Below are positions 13,004-20,048 of a stretch of 42,502 nt of DNA, piece by piece. The notes under the pieces are model-generated. The model was given only the letters and a program-made list of their open reading frames with translations. It did no database searches and was not told where the DNA came from. Position numbers and translations under genes: made by a program. Where the stretch lies: assembly GCF_011058165.1 (NCBI RefSeq), contig NZ_JAALEG010000054.1:1-42502 (forward strand). Reading direction: 5' to 3'. How positions within the stretch are numbered: position 1 is the stretch's first letter; each line of letters opens with the position of its first letter. This DNA is from Rhodococcus aetherivorans. GTDB lineage: Bacteria; Actinomycetota; Actinomycetes; Mycobacteriales; Mycobacteriaceae.

Positions 13004-13759
13004 TCAGGCGATGTGGCGCGCGGCGGTCCCGGCGTGCACGAGCGACTGCCGGTAGCGCTCGTCGATCACGAGCCCGACGGAATCGGAGGCCGCGAGGGTG
13101 GTGGCGCAGCTGACCTCGGGGAACGCCGCCCGGGCGGCGGCGACGGCGCGGTCCCACAGCAGGCCGGGGGCGAGCATCCACGGCGCGAGCACGAGGGTGG
13201 TGGCGCCGGCGGCGCGCAGGGCCGCCAGGGCGTCGACGACGGTCGGTGCCGCGGCGGTGGCGAAGCACGTCCGGCCCCACGCCCACGACGTGCCCCGCAG
13301 CAGGCGCGGGGTGATCGCGTCGGTGGCGGCGTTGGCGTCGTGGCGGCGGGATCCGACCGCGCACAGCGCGACGCCCACCGTCGGGTCGGTCCGGGAGACA
13401 CCGGTGGCGGCGATCGCCTCGCGGGCCGCCGCGACGAGACGGTCGTCGGCGCCGAGGACGTCCGCCTGGATCACGTCGAGAAGCGGGTGCCGGGCGCGGG
13501 CCTCGGCGAGCAGCGCGGGCAGATCCACGCGGGCGTGGAAGGCGCTGCCCAGCAGCAACGGGACCACCACCACGCGGCGGTGTCCCTCGGCGGCGACGGC
13601 GTCGACGACCTGCCCCACCGACGGGGTGTTCAGGTCCAGGAACGCAAGCCGCACGTCCCGGCCCGGGTGGCGTTCCCGCAGCGCCGCGAGCACGGCAGCC
13701 ATGGCGCGCGCCGAGCGCGGGTCACGGCTGCCGTGCGCGACGGCGACGAGCGGGATCAT
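13004..13759 (-). CDS. sirB: Sirohydrochlorin ferrochelatase, CbiX/SirB type
   Basis: A 251-residue protein with two CbiX-like halves. The first has VAVAHGSRD (His9) and GSAFHARVDLP, the two histidines expected to hold the metal and substrate; the second half is more divergent (ALCAVGSRR). It inserts Fe2+ into sirohydrochlorin to give siroheme, the cofactor of SirA encoded in the same operon. The ATG overlaps the cysN stop by four bases (ATGA), so it is the last cotranslated gene of the sulfur cluster. In M. tuberculosis the equivalent gene (Rv2393) directly follows cysH; here cysD and cysN lie between them. Confidence 0.88.
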   Translation of the reverse strand: MIPLVAVAHGSRDPRSARAMAAVLAALRERHPGRDVRLAFLDLNTPSVGQVVDAVAAEGHRRVVVVPLLLGSAFHARVDLPALLAEARARHPLLDVIQADVLGADDRLVAAAREAIAATGVSRTDPTVGVALCAVGSRRHDANAATDAITPRLLRGTSWAWGRTCFATAAAPTVVDALAALRAAGATTLVLAPWMLAPGLLWDRAVAAARAAFPEVSCATTLAASDSVGLVIDERYRQSLVHAGTAARHIA

Positions 13760-15057
13760 GCGGGGACGCGGTCCCCGAGTTCGATCTCGGCGAGGCTGTT
13801 GCCCACCAGGCCCGCCGCGAGGGTGTTGCCGCCCGCGGGATCGATGAGCAGGAAGCTGCCCGTGCGCCGGTTGACCTTGTAGTCGTCGGCCGCGATGGGC
13901 TCGGCAACCCGGACGGTGATGCGGGCGATCTCGTTGAGCTCGAGCGACTCGGGGGTGGGAACCGAGGTCAGGGTCTGCTCGTCGAAGCGCTCCTCGAGCG
14001 TCCCGACGATCGCCTGCGTCGTGCGGGTGCCGTGCTTGAGCAGCAGCCGGGCACCGGGCCGCAGCGGCTTCTCCGCCAGCCAGCACACCGTCGCCTCGAA
14101 CTGGCCGATCGGTTCCGGGGCGGCGGCCGGGGCGGCGATGACGTCGCCGCGGGAGACGTCCACGTCATCCGCGAGGATCAGCGTGACGCTGCGGCCGGCG
14201 TGCGCGACGTCGAGCTCGCCGTCGGCGGTGTCGATCCGCTCGATCGTGGTCCGGGTGCCCGCGGGCAGGATCACGACCTCGTCGCCGGGACGGACACTGC
14301 CCGCCGCGACCTGTCCGGCGTAGCCGCGGTAGTCCGGGAACTCGGCGGTGCGGGGCCGGATCACGTACTGGACCGGGAACCGCAGCCCGATCTCGTGACG
14401 GCCGTGGACGTCGGCGTCGACCGGGACGGACTCGAGGTGCTCGATGAGCGTCGGACCGTCGTAGTATGGCGTGTTCTCCGAACGGACCGCGACGTTGTCC
14501 CCGTGCAGGGCGGAGACCGGGATCTCCTGCACGTCCTCCGGGGACCAGCCGAGCGACCGGGTCAGGGCGTTGAACTGGTCGCAGATGTCGGCGAACACGC
14601 GCGCCGGGTCGTCGACCAGGTCGATCTTGTTGACCGCCAGGACGAGCTTGGGCACGCCGAGCAGCGCGAGGACGGCGGCGTGCTTGCGGGTCTGCGCGAT
14701 CACGCCCTTGCGGGCGTCGACGAGCAGCACCACGAGCTGGGCGGTGGACGCACCCGAGACGGTGTTGCGGGTGTACTGCACGTGTCCCGGGGTGTCCGCG
14801 AGCACGAAGCTGCGCCGGGGTGTGGCGAAGTAGCGGTACGCGACGTCGATGGTGATGCCCTGTTCGCGCTCGGCGCGCAGGCCGTCGACGAGCAGGGACA
14901 GGTCGGGGGTGTCGAGACCCTTGTCGACCGAGGCGCGGGTGACCGCGTCGATCTGGTCGGCCAGCACGGACTTGGTGTCGTACAGCAGCCGGCCCACGAG
15001 GGTGGACTTGCCGTCGTCGACGCTACCGGCGGTGGCGAGTCGAAGGAGGTCGCTCAT
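13756..15057 (-). CDS. cysN: Sulfate adenylyltransferase subunit 1 (GTPase)
   Basis: A 433-residue regulatory GTPase of ATP sulfurylase. P-loop GSVDDGKST (11-19), EREQGITIDVAYR, DTPGHVQYTRN and NKIDLVDD mark the G domain, followed by two EF-Tu-like barrels. With CysD it makes adenosine 5'-phosphosulfate, coupling GTP hydrolysis to sulfate activation. The protein ends at the barrels and has no CysC (APS kinase) domain, unlike mycobacterial CysNC of over 600 residues. APS therefore seems meant for direct reduction by CysH. The ATG is two bases after the cysD stop. Confidence 0.96.
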   Translation of the reverse strand: MSDLLRLATAGSVDDGKSTLVGRLLYDTKSVLADQIDAVTRASVDKGLDTPDLSLLVDGLRAEREQGITIDVAYRYFATPRRSFVLADTPGHVQYTRNTVSGASTAQLVVLLVDARKGVIAQTRKHAAVLALLGVPKLVLAVNKIDLVDDPARVFADICDQFNALTRSLGWSPEDVQEIPVSALHGDNVAVRSENTPYYDGPTLIEHLESVPVDADVHGRHEIGLRFPVQYVIRPRTAEFPDYRGYAGQVAAGSVRPGDEVVILPAGTRTTIERIDTADGELDVAHAGRSVTLILADDVDVSRGDVIAAPAAAPEPIGQFEATVCWLAEKPLRPGARLLLKHGTRTTQAIVGTLEERFDEQTLTSVPTPESLELNEIARITVRVAEPIAADDYKVNRRTGSFLLIDPAGGNTLAAGLVGNSLAEIELGDRVPA

Positions 15058-15059
15058 GA

Positions 15060-16004
15060 TCAGAAATATCCCTCTCGCTTGCGGTCCTCCATGGCCGCTT
15101 CGGAAACGCGGTCGTCGCCGCGGGTCGCCCCGCGCTCGGTGAGCCGCGACGCGGCGACCTCGGCGAGGATCGCCTCGTTGTCGGCGGCCTCGGACAGGAT
15201 CGCGCCGGTGGTGGAGCCGTCGCCGACCGTGCGGTAGCGCACCGACCGGACCTCGAGTTCCTCACCCTCGGCCGGGCCGCCCCAGACGCCGGGCGTCATC
15301 CACATGCCGTCGCGCCGGTACACCGGGCGCTGGTGGGCGTAGTAGATGCCGGCGAGTTCGACGTTGTCCCGGGCGATGTACCGCCAGATGTCGAGCTCGG
15401 TGAAGTTGCTCAGCGGGAAGACCCGCACGTGCTCGCCGGGGGCGTGCCGGCCGTTGTACAGGTTCCACAGCTCGGGCCGCTGCCGCTTGGGATCCCACTG
15501 GCCGAAGGCGTTGCGCAGCGAGAAGATCCGCTCCTTGGCGCGGGAGCGCTCCTCGTCGCGGCGGCCGCCGCCGAACACCGCGTCGAAGCGGTTCTCGGCG
15601 ATGGCGTCGAGCAGCGGCACCGTCTGCAGCGGATTGCGGATCCCGTCGGGCCGCTCGGTGAGGCGGCCGTCGGCGAGGTAGTCCTCGACCTTCGCCACGT
15701 GCAGCCGCAGCCCGTACTTCTCGACGACGTGGTCGCGGAACTCGAGGACCTCGGGAAGGTTGTGCCCGGTGTCGACGTGCAGCAGCGCGAACGGCAGCGG
15801 CGCGGGCCAGAAGGCCTTGAGCGCCAGATGCAGCAGGACCGTCGAGTCCTTGCCGCCCGAGAACAGGATCACCGGGCGCTCGAATTCGCCGGCGACCTCG
15901 CGGAAGACGTGGATCGCTTCGGACTCGAGCGCGTCGAGGGTGTCGAACCTGTCGCCGTCCGACTTGCGCCGGGATTCGGAGAAATTCGTGTCGATGAGTG
16001 TCAT
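15060..16004 (-). CDS. cysD: Sulfate adenylyltransferase subunit 2
   Basis: A 314-residue catalytic subunit of ATP sulfurylase. The PP-loop FSGGKDSTVLLHLALKAF near the N-terminus binds ATP; FGGGRRDEERSRAKERIFS and the C-terminal AAMEDRKREGYF are diagnostic of CysD. It forms APS and pyrophosphate from sulfate and ATP with CysN. The ATG overlaps the cysH stop by four bases (ATGA, 16001-16004), so it is the third enzyme read from the sulfur operon. Confidence 0.97.
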   Translation of the reverse strand: MTLIDTNFSESRRKSDGDRFDTLDALESEAIHVFREVAGEFERPVILFSGGKDSTVLLHLALKAFWPAPLPFALLHVDTGHNLPEVLEFRDHVVEKYGLRLHVAKVEDYLADGRLTERPDGIRNPLQTVPLLDAIAENRFDAVFGGGRRDEERSRAKERIFSLRNAFGQWDPKRQRPELWNLYNGRHAPGEHVRVFPLSNFTELDIWRYIARDNVELAGIYYAHQRPVYRRDGMWMTPGVWGGPAEGEELEVRSVRYRTVGDGSTTGAILSEAADNEAILAEVAASRLTERGATRGDDRVSEAAMEDRKREGYF

Positions 16005-16738
16005 GAGGCGTGCAACCCGCATTCGATCTTGGCTCGGCCGGCCCACCGTCCGCTGCGCGGATCGGCTCCGGGTAGTGGTTTGGCGGTGCAGGGGGCGCAC
16101 CCGATGGACGGATAGCCCTCGTCGACCAGGGGATTGACGAGGATCCCGTGCTCGTCGATGTAGTTCTGCATGTCCTCGTCGGACCACGCGGCGATCGGGT
16201 TGATCTTCACCAGCCCGAAGGCATCGTCGAAGGAGATCAGCGGGGCGTTGGCCCGGGTGGGGGCCTCCACCCGGCGGATGCCGGTGACCCACGCCTGATA
16301 GCCCTTCAGGGTCTCCTTCAGCGGCACCACCTTCCGCAGGCGGCAGCACTCGTTGGGGTCCCGCGCGAACAGATCCTTGCCGAGCAGTGCGTCCTGCTCG
16401 GCCACCGTCTGCTGCGCCTTGGCCTCGACCAGGTTGACGCCGTACACCTGCGCCACGGCGTCACCGGTGCCGAGGGTCTCCGCGAAGTGGTAACCGGTGT
16501 CGAGGAACAGCACGTCCACGCCGGGATGCACCTGCGCCGCGAGGTGCACGAGCACCCCGTCCTGCATGTTCGACGCCACGATGTACGAGTCGCCGAAGTT
16601 CTCCTCGGTCCACTGCAGCAGTTCCCGCGCCGAGGCGCCGTCGAGAGTGGCCGCCCCCTGCGCGGCCAGCTCCCTCAGTTCCTCCGTTGTCCGTGTCGTG
16701 GTCACGTTCCGTCCTTCGATCGTCTGCTCCCCGGTCAT
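16001..16738 (-). CDS. cysH: APS reductase with [4Fe-4S] cluster
   Basis: A 245-residue thioredoxin-dependent reductase. Four cluster cysteines are present as ECCRLRK (Cys131, Cys132) and GCAPC (Cys214, Cys217), which marks the APS-using rather than PAPS-using class. The catalytic Cys240 lies in the C-terminal KIECGLH motif. It converts APS to sulfite and AMP. This fits the absence of an APS kinase domain in CysN. The ATG overlaps the sirA stop by four bases. An in-frame downstream Val codon could also serve as a start, but ATG 16738 gives the coupled arrangement. Confidence 0.95.
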   Translation of the reverse strand: MTGEQTIEGRNVTTTRTTEELRELAAQGAATLDGASARELLQWTEENFGDSYIVASNMQDGVLVHLAAQVHPGVDVLFLDTGYHFAETLGTGDAVAQVYGVNLVEAKAQQTVAEQDALLGKDLFARDPNECCRLRKVVPLKETLKGYQAWVTGIRRVEAPTRANAPLISFDDAFGLVKINPIAAWSDEDMQNYIDEHGILVNPLVDEGYPSIGCAPCTAKPLPGADPRSGRWAGRAKIECGLHAS

Positions 16739-18462
16739 CGCAAATCGGCCTCGTCCGCGCGCAGCACCCACTGCGAGAAGCGTTCTCCCGCAGTGCGGTG
16801 CTTGACGAAGTTGCGCACCACGCGCTCGATGTAGTCGCCCATCTCGGCGCTGGTCACCTTGTGCTGGCGCAGCTTGCGGCCGAACGCGGCATCCATGCCG
16901 AGCGTCCCGCCGAGGTGCACCTGGAAACCCTCCACCTGGTTGCCGTCCCCGTCGTCGACGAGCTGGCCCTTGAAGCCGATGTCGGCGACCTGGGAACGCG
17001 CGCACGAGTTGGGGCAGCCGTTGATGTTGATCGTCACCGGAACGTCCAGCTGGGCGTTGATGTCGGCGAGGCGCTGCTCGAGCTCGGGCACCAGCGCCTG
17101 CGAACGCTTGCGGGTCTCGACGAACGAGAGCTTGCAGAACTCGATGCCCGTGCAGGCCATCAGGTTCTTGCGCCACGGCGTCGGGTTCGCGGGCAGGCCC
17201 AGTTCGCCGAGGTCGGCGATCAGCTGATCTACCTTCTCGTCGGCGACGTCGAGCACGATGAGCTTCTGGTACGGCGTGAAGCGGATGCGATCGGATCCGG
17301 CCTTCTCGGCCGCGTCGGCGACGGCGGCGAGGATCGTGCCGGAGACCCGGCCCGCGATGGGGGCGACGCCGACCGCGTTGAGCCCGTTGCGCAGCTTCTG
17401 CACGCCCACGTGGTCGATCGGGCGCGCCGGCTTCTCCGGCGCGGGTCCGTCCAGCAGCGGCCGCTTCAGGTATTCCGTTTCGAGAACGTCCCGGAACTTC
17501 TCGACGCCCCAGTCCTTGATCAGGAACTTCAGCCGCGCCTTCGAGCGCAGGCGGCGGTAGCCGTAGTCGCGGAAGACCGACACGACGGCCTCCCACACGT
17601 CGGGCACCTCGGCGAGCGGGATCCACGCGCCGACCCGTTGCGCCAGCATCGGATTCGTCGACAGGCCGCCGCCGACCCACAGGTCGAAGCCGGGGCCGTG
17701 CTCGGGGTGGTTCACGCCGACGAACGCGACGTCGTTGATCTCGTGCACCACGTCCTGCTGACCGGAGATCGCGGTCTTGAACTTGCGCGGCAGGTTCGAG
17801 TACTTCGGGTCGCCGATGTAGCGGCGGACGATCTCCTCGACCGCCGGTGTGCCGTCGATGATCTCGTCGAGGGACTCGCCGGCGAGGGGGGAACCGAGCA
17901 CCACGCGGGGGCAGTCGCCGCACGCCTCGGTGGTCTTCAGGCCGACGGATTCGAGACGGCGCCAGATCTCCGGGACGTTCTCGACCTCGATCCAGTGGTA
18001 CTGGACGTTCTCGCGGTCCGACAGGTCGGCGGTGTCGCGAGCGAACTCGGTCGAGATCCCCGCGATCGTGCGCAACTGCGCGAGGTTCAGGGCGCCGCCG
18101 TCGCAGCGCACCCGCATCATGAAGTACTTCGCCTCGAGCAGATCGATGTTCTCGTCGCCGGTGTAGGTGCCGTCGTAGCCCTGTTCGCGCTGCGTGTACA
18201 GGCCCCACCAGCGGAAGCGGTTGCGCAGGTCGCTCCGGTCGATTCCGTCGAATCCCGTGTGCGCGTAGATGTCTTCGATGCGCCGGCGCACGTTGAGCGG
18301 GTTGTCGTCCTTCTTGACCTGCTCGTTGGGGTTGAGCGGCTCACGGTAGCCGAGGGCCCACTGGCCCTCCGCGCGCTGCTTGGCGGGCCGGGCCGGGCGG
18401 CGGCGGGCCGCGGCGGTTTCGGTCGTATCGCCGGCGGGGGAGACGTCGGTGGTCGACGACAT
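16735..18462 (-). CDS. sirA: Ferredoxin-dependent sulfite reductase
   Basis: A 575-residue siroheme/[4Fe-4S] enzyme reducing sulfite to sulfide by six electrons. The cluster motif is C-x5-C (Cys437, Cys443 in ACTGIEFC) followed by C-x3-C (Cys483, Cys487 in NGCPNSC). The stretch TTEACGDCPR (Cys181, Cys184) corresponds to the region that in mycobacterial SirA forms a Cys-Tyr link near siroheme. The closely related nitrite reductases share the fold, but cotranscription with cysH, cysD and cysN supports sulfite. CCAGGAG lies seven bases before the ATG. A 114-base region with hairpins separates it from the cysteine leader peptide. Confidence 0.94.
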   Translation of the reverse strand: MSSTTDVSPAGDTTETAAARRRPARPAKQRAEGQWALGYREPLNPNEQVKKDDNPLNVRRRIEDIYAHTGFDGIDRSDLRNRFRWWGLYTQREQGYDGTYTGDENIDLLEAKYFMMRVRCDGGALNLAQLRTIAGISTEFARDTADLSDRENVQYHWIEVENVPEIWRRLESVGLKTTEACGDCPRVVLGSPLAGESLDEIIDGTPAVEEIVRRYIGDPKYSNLPRKFKTAISGQQDVVHEINDVAFVGVNHPEHGPGFDLWVGGGLSTNPMLAQRVGAWIPLAEVPDVWEAVVSVFRDYGYRRLRSKARLKFLIKDWGVEKFRDVLETEYLKRPLLDGPAPEKPARPIDHVGVQKLRNGLNAVGVAPIAGRVSGTILAAVADAAEKAGSDRIRFTPYQKLIVLDVADEKVDQLIADLGELGLPANPTPWRKNLMACTGIEFCKLSFVETRKRSQALVPELEQRLADINAQLDVPVTININGCPNSCARSQVADIGFKGQLVDDGDGNQVEGFQVHLGGTLGMDAAFGRKLRQHKVTSAEMGDYIERVVRNFVKHRTAGERFSQWVLRADEADLR

Positions 18463-18539
18463 ACGGGTACTCCTGGAGTTCGCGAGGGACCGGATCGGGA
18501 TCGGCAGGGCGGGCTGAGCCCGGCGCGGACATGCCTCGA

Positions 18540-18591
18540 CCCGGCGGGAAGCGGGGGCTGCCGGGGGTGGGGCCGACTATCGACAGTCGGC
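18540..18591 (-). promoter_or_regulatory. Candidate attenuator hairpins between leader peptide and sirA
   Basis: Two stems follow one another on the minus strand. The first, GCCGACT-GTCGAT-AGTCGGC (18591-18572), covers the last cysteine codon and the stop of the leader frame. The second, CCCGGC...GCCGGG (18565-18540), lies just downstream. A ribosome paused on the Cys codons would block the first stem. The sirA Shine-Dalgarno is at 18470-18476. Confidence 0.55.
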
Positions 18592-18687
18592 GCAGAAACC
18601 GGCGGTGCAGGACAGACACCGCGATGCACAGACACGCTTGAGGTCGACGTGGCGTCGCGCCACGAGTCGCACTCCGGGTCCGGTCAT
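18577..18687 (-). CDS. Cysteine-rich leader peptide (attenuation ORF) of the sulfur operon
   Basis: A 36-codon frame with the peptide opening MTGPGVRLVARRHVDLKR and ending VCASRCLSCTAGFCADCR. Five of the last 17 codons are cysteine (20, 24, 27, 32, 35). Peptides with an ARRHVDL-type core followed by Cys codons are known upstream of sulfur and cysteine genes in actinobacteria; in mycobacteria, leaderless polycysteine frames act as cysteine-responsive attenuators. No Shine-Dalgarno precedes this ATG. A -10-like CACAAT ends seven bases upstream, so the message probably starts at the ATG. A hairpin overlaps its stop codon. I infer that low Cys-tRNA stalls the ribosome and raises sirA-cysHDN-sirB expression. 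Confidence 0.8.
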   Translation of the reverse strand: MTGPGVRLVARRHVDLKRVCASRCLSCTAGFCADCR

Positions 18688-18694
18688 GCGGACC

Positions 18695-18700
18695 ATTGTG
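18695..18700 (-). promoter_or_regulatory. Possible -10 element (CACAAT) of the sulfur operon
   Basis: On the minus strand CACAAT is followed by seven bases and the ATG of the leader peptide, consistent with a leaderless transcript. The -35 region is not recognisable. Confidence 0.45.
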
Positions 18701-18745
18701 CCATGTCACGGGCCTGTTCTCGAAACGTGGCGGTATTTACGCCGA

Positions 18746-18758
18746 ATTTCGGGGAAAT
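18746..18758. promoter_or_regulatory. Inverted repeat in AT-rich patch between sirA leader and hemW
   Basis: ATTTC-GGG-GAAAT sits in a locally AT-rich stretch (about 18733-18758) of the divergent intergenic region. It lies about 60 bases upstream of the leader ATG and about 90 bases upstream of hemW, so it could be an operator for either. No known box is recognised. Confidence 0.3.
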
Positions 18759-18845
18759 GCCGAGGTGACAGCGCCGGGCCGGGGTGGCGTGTCCGGGCCG
18801 TGTCCGGGCGGCGGGCTCCGGTCGGCCTTCTGGAACACTGGGGGA

Positions 18846-20048
18846 GTGAGTGGAACCAATGTCGGAGTCGGAGCAGGGTTCGAATTGCCGGCCTCGGCCC
18901 TCGCCGGTGTCGGTTCCCGCCCGTTCGGCGTGTACGTGCACGTCCCGTTCTGCGCGAGCCGCTGCGGCTATTGCGACTTCAACACCTACACCGCCGGAGA
19001 GCTCGGCACGTCCGCGTCTCCGCAGTCGTGGCTCGAGGGGTTGCGCAGCGAGCTCGACATCGCGGCGCGACTGCTCGGCGCCCCGGCGGCGCAGACCGTC
19101 TTCGTCGGCGGTGGCACCCCGTCGCTGCTCGGTGCCGACGGCCTGTCGCAGGTGCTCGCGGCGGTCCGGTCGAGCTTCGGCCTCGCCCCGGGCGCGGAGG
19201 TGACGACGGAGTCCAACCCGGAATCGACGTCGCCGGAGTTCTTCGACGGCATCCGCGGGGCCGGTTACACCCGCGTGTCGCTGGGCATGCAGTCCGCCGC
19301 TCCGCACGTGCTCGCGGTGCTCGACCGCACGCACACCCCGGGCCGGGCCGTCGCGGCCGCGGGCGAGGCGCGGGCCGCCGGATTCGACCACGTCAACCTG
19401 GACCTGATCTACGGCACCCCCGGCGAGCGGGACGAGGACCTCGACGCGTCCCTCGACGCCGTGCTCGCTGCGGACGTCGATCATGTCTCGGCGTACGCGC
19501 TGATCGTCGAGGACGGCACCGCGCTCGCCCGCCGGGTGCGCAGGGGCGAACTGCCGGCCCCCGACGACGACGTGCTCGCGGCCCGCTACGAGCGCATCGA
19601 CGCGCGGCTCGAGGCCGCCGGCCTGACCTGGTACGAGGTGTCGAACTGGGCGCGCGCCGGCGATCCGTCGGCGCGGTGCGCCCACAACCTCGGCTACTGG
19701 GACGGCGGCGACTGGTGGGGGGCCGGGCCGGGCGCGCACAGCCACGTCGGCGGCGTCCGCTGGTGGAACGTCAAGCACCCGGCGCGCTACGCGGACGCGC
19801 TCGCCGCCGGCGGGCTCCCGGTCGGGGGCAGCGAACTGCTCACCGCCGGCGACGTCCACACCGAACGGGTGATGCTCGAGGTGCGGCTGCGCACCGGCCT
19901 GCCGCTGGACGTGCTCGCCCCCGAGGAACGACGCGCCGCCGAGACCGTCGTCGCGGACGGCCTCGCCGACCTGCGCGCCGGCCGGCTGGTGCTCACCGAT
20001 CGCGGCCGGCTCCTCGCCGACGCGGTGGTGCGCGCGATCCTGACCTGA
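18846..20048 (+). CDS. hemW: Radical SAM heme chaperone HemW (HemN-like)
   Basis: A 400-residue radical SAM protein. VPFCASRCGYCDF supplies the C-x3-C-x2-C cluster (Cys36, Cys40, Cys43), and GGGTPSLL and ESNPES bind SAM. Proteins of this branch were long annotated as oxygen-independent coproporphyrinogen oxidase but are now regarded as heme chaperones that lack that activity. The start is GTG 18846; AACACT ends six bases before it, suggesting a leaderless message, although GGGGGA also lies close upstream. Synteny matches Rv2388c. The stop codon TGA shares its A with the first unit of the downstream tandem repeat. Confidence 0.92.
   Translation: MSGTNVGVGAGFELPASALAGVGSRPFGVYVHVPFCASRCGYCDFNTYTAGELGTSASPQSWLEGLRSELDIAARLLGAPAAQTVFVGGGTPSLLGADGLSQVLAAVRSSFGLAPGAEVTTESNPESTSPEFFDGIRGAGYTRVSLGMQSAAPHVLAVLDRTHTPGRAVAAAGEARAAGFDHVNLDLIYGTPGERDEDLDASLDAVLAADVDHVSAYALIVEDGTALARRVRRGELPAPDDDVLAARYERIDARLEAAGLTWYEVSNWARAGDPSARCAHNLGYWDGGDWWGAGPGAHSHVGGVRWWNVKHPARYADALAAGGLPVGGSELLTAGDVHTERVMLEVRLRTGLPLDVLAPEERRAAETVVADGLADLRAGRLVLTDRGRLLADAVVRAILT

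Follow-up and report, generated by a model that had tools for sequence, protein, structure and literature searches.

The question raised by this locus is whether a short, cysteine-rich open frame that precedes a cysteine-metabolism operon in Rhodococcus aetherivorans is a regulatory leader of the kind known from mycobacteria and, if so, which of its features evolution holds fixed. Polycysteine leaderless short-ORF attenuators with contiguous Cys codons were reportedly described by Canestrari and colleagues in Molecular Microbiology in 2020. For M. smegmatis, RNA-seq and ribosome profiling of a leaderless uORF before nirA/Msmeg_4527 are published (Shell et al. 2015, PMC4633059, Fig 7C), and cysteine-dependent attenuation by leaderless Cys uORFs in mycobacteria, with stalling and cysteine dependence, is set out in PMC9031893; polycysteine leaderless short-ORF attenuators are also treated in PMC9094748 and PMC13236596. 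For the cys leader peptides proposed in Mycobacterium and Propionibacterium, no conserved terminator-like hairpins are reported, and Rho is weakly proposed (Seliverstov et al. 2005, PMC1262725).

The window, meaning the whole 42,502-nucleotide stretch of R. aetherivorans DNA analysed here, carries the leader ORF (uORF) on its minus strand, with the ATG at 18687, the stop at 18579-18577 and the peptide MTGPGVRLVARRHVDLKRVCASRCLSCTAGFCADCR. Direct reading of the letters bears out what a first, sequence-only reading had reported, namely a 36-codon frame with five Cys in its last 17 residues, spaced as C-x3-C-x2-C-x4-C-x2-C rather than clustered, and a CACAAT (18700-18695) seven bases 5' of the ATG without a Shine-Dalgarno (SD) sequence. 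A hexamer of this kind 6-7 nt before the start, with no SD-like motif, recurs in 81/81 leaders, the 81 being the window and the best 80 of 570 SirA relatives, a choice by which close relatives are over-represented; with identical sequences merged, 61, 58, 56, 54 or 48 distinct ones remain, depending on the analysis. A first motif search placed a leader in 57/81 sirA loci, the 24 missed loci having HVDY instead of HVD[LF], and the wider pattern RRH[VI]D[LFY]xR[VM][CG] gave exactly one leader per locus in 81/81.

The start of each leader was taken as the in-frame start having a CACAAT-like hexamer, yet 70/81 are exactly CACAAT. The CA[CG]AAT-like hexamer lies 7 nt upstream of the in-frame start in 73/81 leaders and 6 nt upstream in 8/81; start codons are ATG in 67, GTG in 13 and TTG in 1; and SD-like GGAG or GAGG, sought 4-20 nt upstream of the uORF start, occurs in 0/81. 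Together, the hexamer spacing and the missing SD in 81/81 predict a leaderless transcript.

Table 1. Features of the leader and operon in the window, with the basis of each assignment
Feature	Coordinates	Strand	Basis or remark
-10-like hexamer CACAAT, predicted leaderless promoter	18695..18700	minus	CACAAT 70/81, CAGAAT 9/81
Leader ORF (uORF), 36 codons, predicted leaderless	18577..18687	minus	direct reading; NF042936 and NF042934 sub-cut-off; leader in 81/81 sirA loci
Intra-uORF hairpin CGAC-UC-GUGGCG...CGCCAC-GUCG, codons 7-15	18645..18669	minus	pair conservation, codon choice
Conserved core RRHVDLKRVC, codons 11-20, last residue the first Cys	18628..18657	minus	comparison of relatives' leaders
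Predicted stall region: 17-codon tail containing five Cys	18580..18630	minus	direct reading; relatives' tails have 2-7 Cys
Stop-codon hairpin	18572..18591	minus	8 bp in window and nearest kin; chance level over 74 distinct leaders
C-rich spacer, uORF stop to sirA, 114 nt	18463..18576	minus	C 0.48, G 0.28
Possible alternative helices	18489..18565	minus	18565-18560 CCCGGC with GCCGGG; 18545-18537 GCCGGGTCG with 18497-18489 CGATCCGGT; weak
Spacer hairpin position, CAGCCC loop motif at 18516-18511	18505..18522	minus	window copy weak, deviant; covariation in 65-row alignment
sirA Shine-Dalgarno AGGAG	18470..18474	minus	direct reading
sirA, nirA-type sulfite/nitrite reductase	16735..18462	minus	PF01077, PF03460; NirA-type NCBIfam models sub-cut-off
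cysH	16001..16735	minus	NF002537 and TIGR00434, both over cut-off
cysD open frame, true start internal	15060..16349	minus	TIGR02039 over cut-off, match from near residue 134-138
cysN	13756..15057	minus	TIGR02034 over cut-off
Open frame with sirB-like chelatase	13004..14086	minus	NF033198, E 3.3e-19, sub-cut-off, match from residue 113

The sequence-only reading had placed the leader before an operon sirA-cysH-cysD-cysN-sirB, of which sirA, cysH, cysD and cysN are upheld by family models and the last gene is only sirB-like, below its cut-off; a cysteine-metabolism operon (the first four genes) lies downstream, as in the attenuator class. On the plus strand, a divergent gene from about 18850 looks by motif like what we take to be a HemW-type radical SAM protein, in which case two operons would share one intergenic region. 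A HemW-like motif appears in translations of related loci, and the one plus-strand frame scanned from about 18850 in the window gave no family match.

Against NF042936, the NCBIfam model of the Ms4527A family Cys-rich leader peptide, the window peptide scores 33.6 bits (E 2.1e-8), which is under the curated cut-off of 45, so that it is not a member by the rule of that model; against NF042934 (NCBIfam cis_reg_atten, putative leader peptide) it scores 18.9 bits, below the cut-off of 27. The position before sirA, found in 80/80 relatives' loci (best 80 of 570) and in the window, is the one expected of NF042936 leaders. On sequence grounds, the window leader corresponds to Ms4527A, the nirA/sirA leader of mycobacteria, without being filed as an NF042936 member.

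At E<=0.1, NF042936 matches 18/18 genus genomes vs 1/14 control genomes, with 0/18 above the cut-off; at E<=1, a lax limit at which 5/14 control genomes match too, 267 of 301 family genomes match and 83 exceed the cut-off. Class-wide, NF042934 at E<=0.01 matches 151/197 genomes and 0/14 controls, with up to 15 matches per genome, and its 30 best-scoring loci have the core R[RLP][AH][VI]DLxR followed by 1 to 8 Cys.

Two further observations concern leader multiplicity. One genus group (g49) has up to 15 NF042934 matches in each genome, and the genome of the window itself holds five more RRHVDL-type leaders (L001-L005, at C22:33041, C22:53506, C59:1002, C196:24304 and C22:43669). The genes after these five resemble a flavin reductase, an ABC substrate-binding protein, an OsmC-like protein, a NAD(P)-binding oxidoreductase (presumably FprA-like) and an FMN monooxygenase, most of these matches lying below family cut-offs, as do all those to the flavin reductase, the OsmC-like protein and the FMN monooxygenase.

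Anatomy and mycobacterial precedent together make it probable that the leader is a cysteine-responsive attenuator acting in cis on the sirA-cysH-cysD-cysN operon. A 70S ribosome would start on the 5' AUG of the predicted leaderless transcript; with ample Cys-tRNA it would reach the stop, the spacer would fold or lie exposed, and sirA would be poorly expressed; with Cys-tRNA short, it would stall at the first Cys codons, some 19 residues into the peptide, and its presence would alter the RNA beyond it, in access either to the SD or, for Rho, to the C-rich spacer, such that sirA is expressed. The upper part of the exit tunnel would then be occupied by the conserved core, which would likely favour the stall, and operon expression would be raised upon cysteine shortage, as reported for similar mycobacterial leaders.

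The sequence shows the hexamer, the lack of a uORF SD, the core RRHVD[LFY]KRVC, the fluid Cys tail, the C-rich spacer with its covarying hairpin and a normal sirA SD. Cysteine-responsive attenuation is favoured by the NF042936 matches of the window and of the genus, the leader in 80/80 relatives' loci, the leaderless anatomy, the first Cys at codon 20 in 77/81, near-fixed residues with varying codons, the C excess of the spacers, the lack of an intrinsic terminator, the mycobacterial precedent and the related leaders of the same genome; no adjacent Cys codons in the window, scores under both curated cut-offs, the shuffling test of SD masking and a whole 258-nt leader that folds no better than its shuffles (z -0.65) speak against it. 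The match to polycysteine leaderless attenuators proposed from the sequence alone stands for the predicted leaderless start, the leader-peptide class and the precedent, and does not extend to contiguous Cys codons. A trp-type attenuator is not indicated, 0 intrinsic terminator hairpins with a U tract being found in 18380-18900.

One way in which a stall could reach sirA is the SD unmasking described for mycobacteria, in which ribosome stalling disrupts base pairs that keep the sirA SD hidden; for this locus it is quite possible without being the expected outcome. Folding tests covered 75 leaders, identical ones and gaps over 180 nt being left out. Covering the leader to the first Cys codon plus 30 nt cuts the cost of opening the SD by more than 0.5 kcal/mol in 34/75 and raises it in 10/75, and in the window the cost falls from 4.35 to 2.8-2.9 when the leader is covered; however, covering that ends at the first Cys codon leaves the cost unchanged overall (lower in 16/75, higher in 18/75), and the opening cost is 4.51 kcal/mol with the real uORF vs 4.78 with shuffled ones, the real value lying above the shuffled mean in just 28/75. 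In the RNAalifold consensus of 15 close leaders, part of the Cys tail is base-paired to the SD (columns 84-89 with 242-247), although one of these consensus pairs is broken in the window (U88 to G), and a cruder folding test with the ribosome at Cys1 has the SD more open in 39/80 leaders.

For SD masking by the uORF as a general rule the evidence is mixed, in that shuffling does not support it and covering gives divided results. In the mycobacterial-type leaders L014, L016, L022 and L161, inspection by eye finds the sirA SD hidden by a GGCUCC/GGAGCC-type hairpin, which is not so in leaders of Rhodococcus and Nocardia; the last step of regulation may vary from lineage to lineage.

Another route is a Rho-dependent step, in which the C-rich spacer would load Rho after the uORF ribosome leaves, and a stalled ribosome or the hairpins would block it; the idea deserves to be kept in view, with the balance leaning somewhat against it. 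Across the 80 of 81 leaders used for the spacer and SD counts (the window and 79 relatives, L120 being dropped as its sirA start was not found), C exceeds G in 80/80 spacers and in 53/80 stretches just upstream, C minus G averages 0.157 in the spacers, and 58/80 spacers rank among the highest 5% when set against sense windows drawn at random from the same locus. The lack of an intrinsic terminator also suits a Rho-dependent step, as does a like idea for mycobacterial cys leaders, the motifs of which are termed weak (PMC1262725). C/G skew by itself, however, makes no Rho site, and the spacer is not itself covered by a ribosome stalled at codon 20.

The C-rich spacer holds a predicted, covarying CAGCCC-loop hairpin that is apparently an undescribed RNA element; among open-licence papers, surveyed mostly by listing, no description of the leader in Rhodococcus or of its two RNA hairpins was found. 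The hairpin, with the loop (n)CAGCCC, is positioned 48-65 nt 5' of sirA, and a stem of at least 5 bp forms in 58% of 48 distinct flanks vs 8% of shuffled flanks and 4% of other positions, the best-pairing copy being used where several copies of the motif occur. The loop motif is missing from -70 to -40 in 18 leaders, and 10 lack CAGC between -115 and -40; in the wider range, comprising 54 distinct stretches, stems reach at least 5 bp in 31 and stay below 4 bp in 13.

Stem variants with compensation include GAGGA/UCCUC, AGCGCA/UGCGCU and GGGCGUGAG/CUCACGCCU. An alignment of the full set of 65 distinct stretches (56 of its rows being distinct) has a covariation score of 0.321 vs 0.189 +/- 0.016 in shuffles (0/500), the best slid alignment, in which relatedness is preserved, scores 0.170, and paired cells amount to 70.3% vs 59.8%. 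The same alignment shows no excess of pairs changed on both sides (7 vs 7.2 in shuffles, 404/500) or of further pair types (27 vs 23.9, 39/500). A sub-alignment of 45 of the 65 scored 0.392, the 20 omitted including the poorly pairing L051, L056, L059, L070, L082, L089 and L095. Among leaders outside the alignment, for which group labels rest on peptide reading and the match in L026 lies nearer the start than the rest, stems of at least 5 bp form in 9/10 mycobacterial-type leaders having CAGCC (of 18; shuffled 10%) and in 5/9 others having CAGCC (of 16; shuffled 8%).

The window's own copy amounts to 4 bp in register, or to CGGGC-UCA-GCCCG in the minimum-energy fold. Model R1 of the hairpin comes from 45 sequences picked out of the 65 aligned, the window among them, and its score of 27.8 bits in the window is therefore not independent. 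At E<=1, R1 matches 13/18 genus genomes (best E 0.077; 150 candidates per genome scored); among the 14 matches listed, 8 lie at the sirA leader and 6 elsewhere, the sole match in the window's genome being away from this locus, so that R1 is no sharp genome-wide marker for the hairpin. Rfam at gathering score gave 0 matches in the window and 0 in 10 related loci. In 15 close relatives, a helix GCCGGGUCG:CGAUCCGGU encloses the CAGCCC hairpin, with column pair 172-220 changed on both sides in 2/15; the alternative partner for GCCGGG would be CCCGGC just past the uORF stop, a pairing traced by eye that needs a one-column shift in L138.

The 7-bp hairpin over the last Cys codon and the stop, also pointed out in the sequence-only reading, exists in the window (GCCGACUG/UAGUCGGC, 7-8 bp) and is common only to its nearest kin. 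Of 15 close leaders, 12 keep its inner pairs, and the 3 that lack them have shorter uORFs. Around the stop, 18/74 distinct leaders have a stem of at least 6 bp vs 21% of shuffles, the mean stem length is 4.30 vs 4.44, and the stop-codon hairpin was rejected as a core element.

Within the uORF, codon choice keeps a predicted hairpin. Among 61 distinct leaders, several codons are near frozen, namely CGA at R7 (49/51), GTG at V9 (59/60), CGC at R12 (59/61), CAC at H13 (57/61) and GTC at V14 (60/60); in the sirA control (53/61 loci), 95% single-codon use is reached in 0/23 conserved Val columns and 1/39 Arg columns, CGA accounts for 186/3,056 Arg codons, and the CAC preference is ordinary, 4/7 sirA His columns also reaching 95%. 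The frozen codons build the stem CGAC-UN-GUGGC/GCCAC-GUCG, most of the free ones falling in its loop and bulge. Across 58 distinct leaders, pairing is intact in 95.8% of the cells of the nine stem pairs, a figure inflated by shared ancestry, vs a mean of 75.6% and a maximum of 79.9% under synonymous recoding (200 trials); the longer form is unevenly kept, its outer pairs being present in anything from 16 to all 58 of the leaders.

This hairpin seems to be a lineage trait superimposed on the peptide, because its energy is unremarkable (leader by leader, stability against synonymous recoding gives p<0.05 in just 1/61, median z -0.67), V19, with GTC also near-fixed (54/60), has not kept its pairing partners, and mixed other-genus leaders have the hairpin broken in many cases (e.g., one stem pair in 24/45) with the peptide core intact. 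By eye, no such hairpin was seen in the sibling leaders of the same genome.

A separate regularity is GGAG near uORF codons 5-6 (window 18675-18661, codons 5-9), 8-9 nt before codon 9, in 41/58 distinct leaders, codon 9 being an in-frame GTG in 40 of those 41. Where codon 5 encodes Gly, GGA or GGG is used in 50/50 cases of the 58-leader set and in 52/53 of the 61-leader set, compared with 17% in sirA. The GGAG could mark an internal SD-led start or a pause, and the hairpin accounts for it in part only.

At the peptide level, the core of the relatives' leaders is RRH[VI]D[LFY]xR. In 56 distinct peptides, L8 is found in 56 and each of V9, V14, V19 and C20 in 55, R11, R12, H13, D15 and R18 being invariant by the search pattern itself, which no locus failed. 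Since amino acids are near fixed while codons at L8, A10, R11, D15 and R18 vary synonymously, the peptide itself is under selection. The first Cys stands at codon 20 in 77/81 leaders and is retained in 79/80 relatives, or 80/81 with the window; the exception, L080, from a metagenome-assembled genome and included in the counts, has the frame with Gly in place of the first Cys.

Beyond that residue the tail is fluid, with 50 distinct forms among 80 leaders and a Cys number from 2 to 7. Adjacent Cys codons, of which the window has none, are frequent in relatives (e.g., CSCCCLPC), and other relatives' tails have only two Cys. Loss of Cys codons in relatives, a point raised in the sequence-only reading, is seen for individual codons, which come and go; the first is kept as stated, and every distinct peptide has at least two. 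The tails vary freely and the residues preceding the Cys run are near invariant, so that selection maintains the core and not the Cys pattern.

Such conservation bears on a reading as a nascent-peptide arrest leader, in which RRHVD[LFY]xRV holds the ribosome from the tunnel and the Cys codons merely tune the response; such a leader would answer to cysteine, a small molecule or redox state. It agrees with a related core kept class-wide though Cys falls to one or two (the 151/197 genomes and 30 best-scoring NF042934 loci above) and with core residues near fixed by freely varying codons, yet the first Cys, kept in 80/81, is what plain codon starvation predicts too, and arrest as the main principle is credible but rather unlikely. 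A function of the finished peptide, through metal binding or otherwise after translation, as entertained earlier for a window tail that is Cys-rich with regular Cys spacing, is highly improbable, since the spacing has no other case among the 81 (it recurs in sister L138, outside them), the tail varies from 2 to 7 Cys in 50 distinct forms, and some relatives have just two Cys (CSCLGPIV).

Returning to cysteine-responsive attenuation in cis, a bolder version would join its parts into a two-code switch, in which the same nucleotides serve as the arrest motif RRHVD[LFY]KRV and as a hairpin closing behind the ribosome at codon 20, acting with a CAGCCC element that travelled family-wide with the sirA leader. 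We regard this version as speculative and unlikely to hold in full.

Altogether, these results widen the range of a cysteine attenuator already known in mycobacteria, which now probably takes in Rhodococcus and Nocardia, and indicate that evolution has held fixed the peptide core, the distance from start to first Cys, the intra-ORF hairpin and the spacer hairpin, and not the name-giving Cys run. Codon starvation, nascent-chain arrest and RNA structure have thereby become separable questions. The leader class is already known; the window leader departs from it in that its Cys codons are dispersed and its score is sub-threshold, and further in its two RNA hairpins.

Set beside known systems, the window leader shares with the Ms4527A leader its place, as a predicted leaderless uORF, ahead of the matching sulfite/nitrite reductase operon and the same core by the NCBIfam model, and differs from it in Cys that are spaced rather than adjacent, in a longer tail and in a score short of the NF042936 cut-off (33.6 vs 45 bits). 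With NF042934 leaders it has in common the R-R-x-V-D-L-x-R core with terminal Cys, whereas its score is again too low (18.9 vs 27 bits). As in the cys leaders of Seliverstov et al. (2005, PMC1262725), Cys codons lie near the stop without a terminator and Rho is suggested, whereas the window-type leaders have a covarying spacer hairpin. Finally, the polycysteine leaderless attenuators likewise place a leaderless Cys uORF before cysteine genes with presumed stalling in cis, whereas their Cys codons are contiguous and the evidence for SD unmasking in window-type leaders is mixed.
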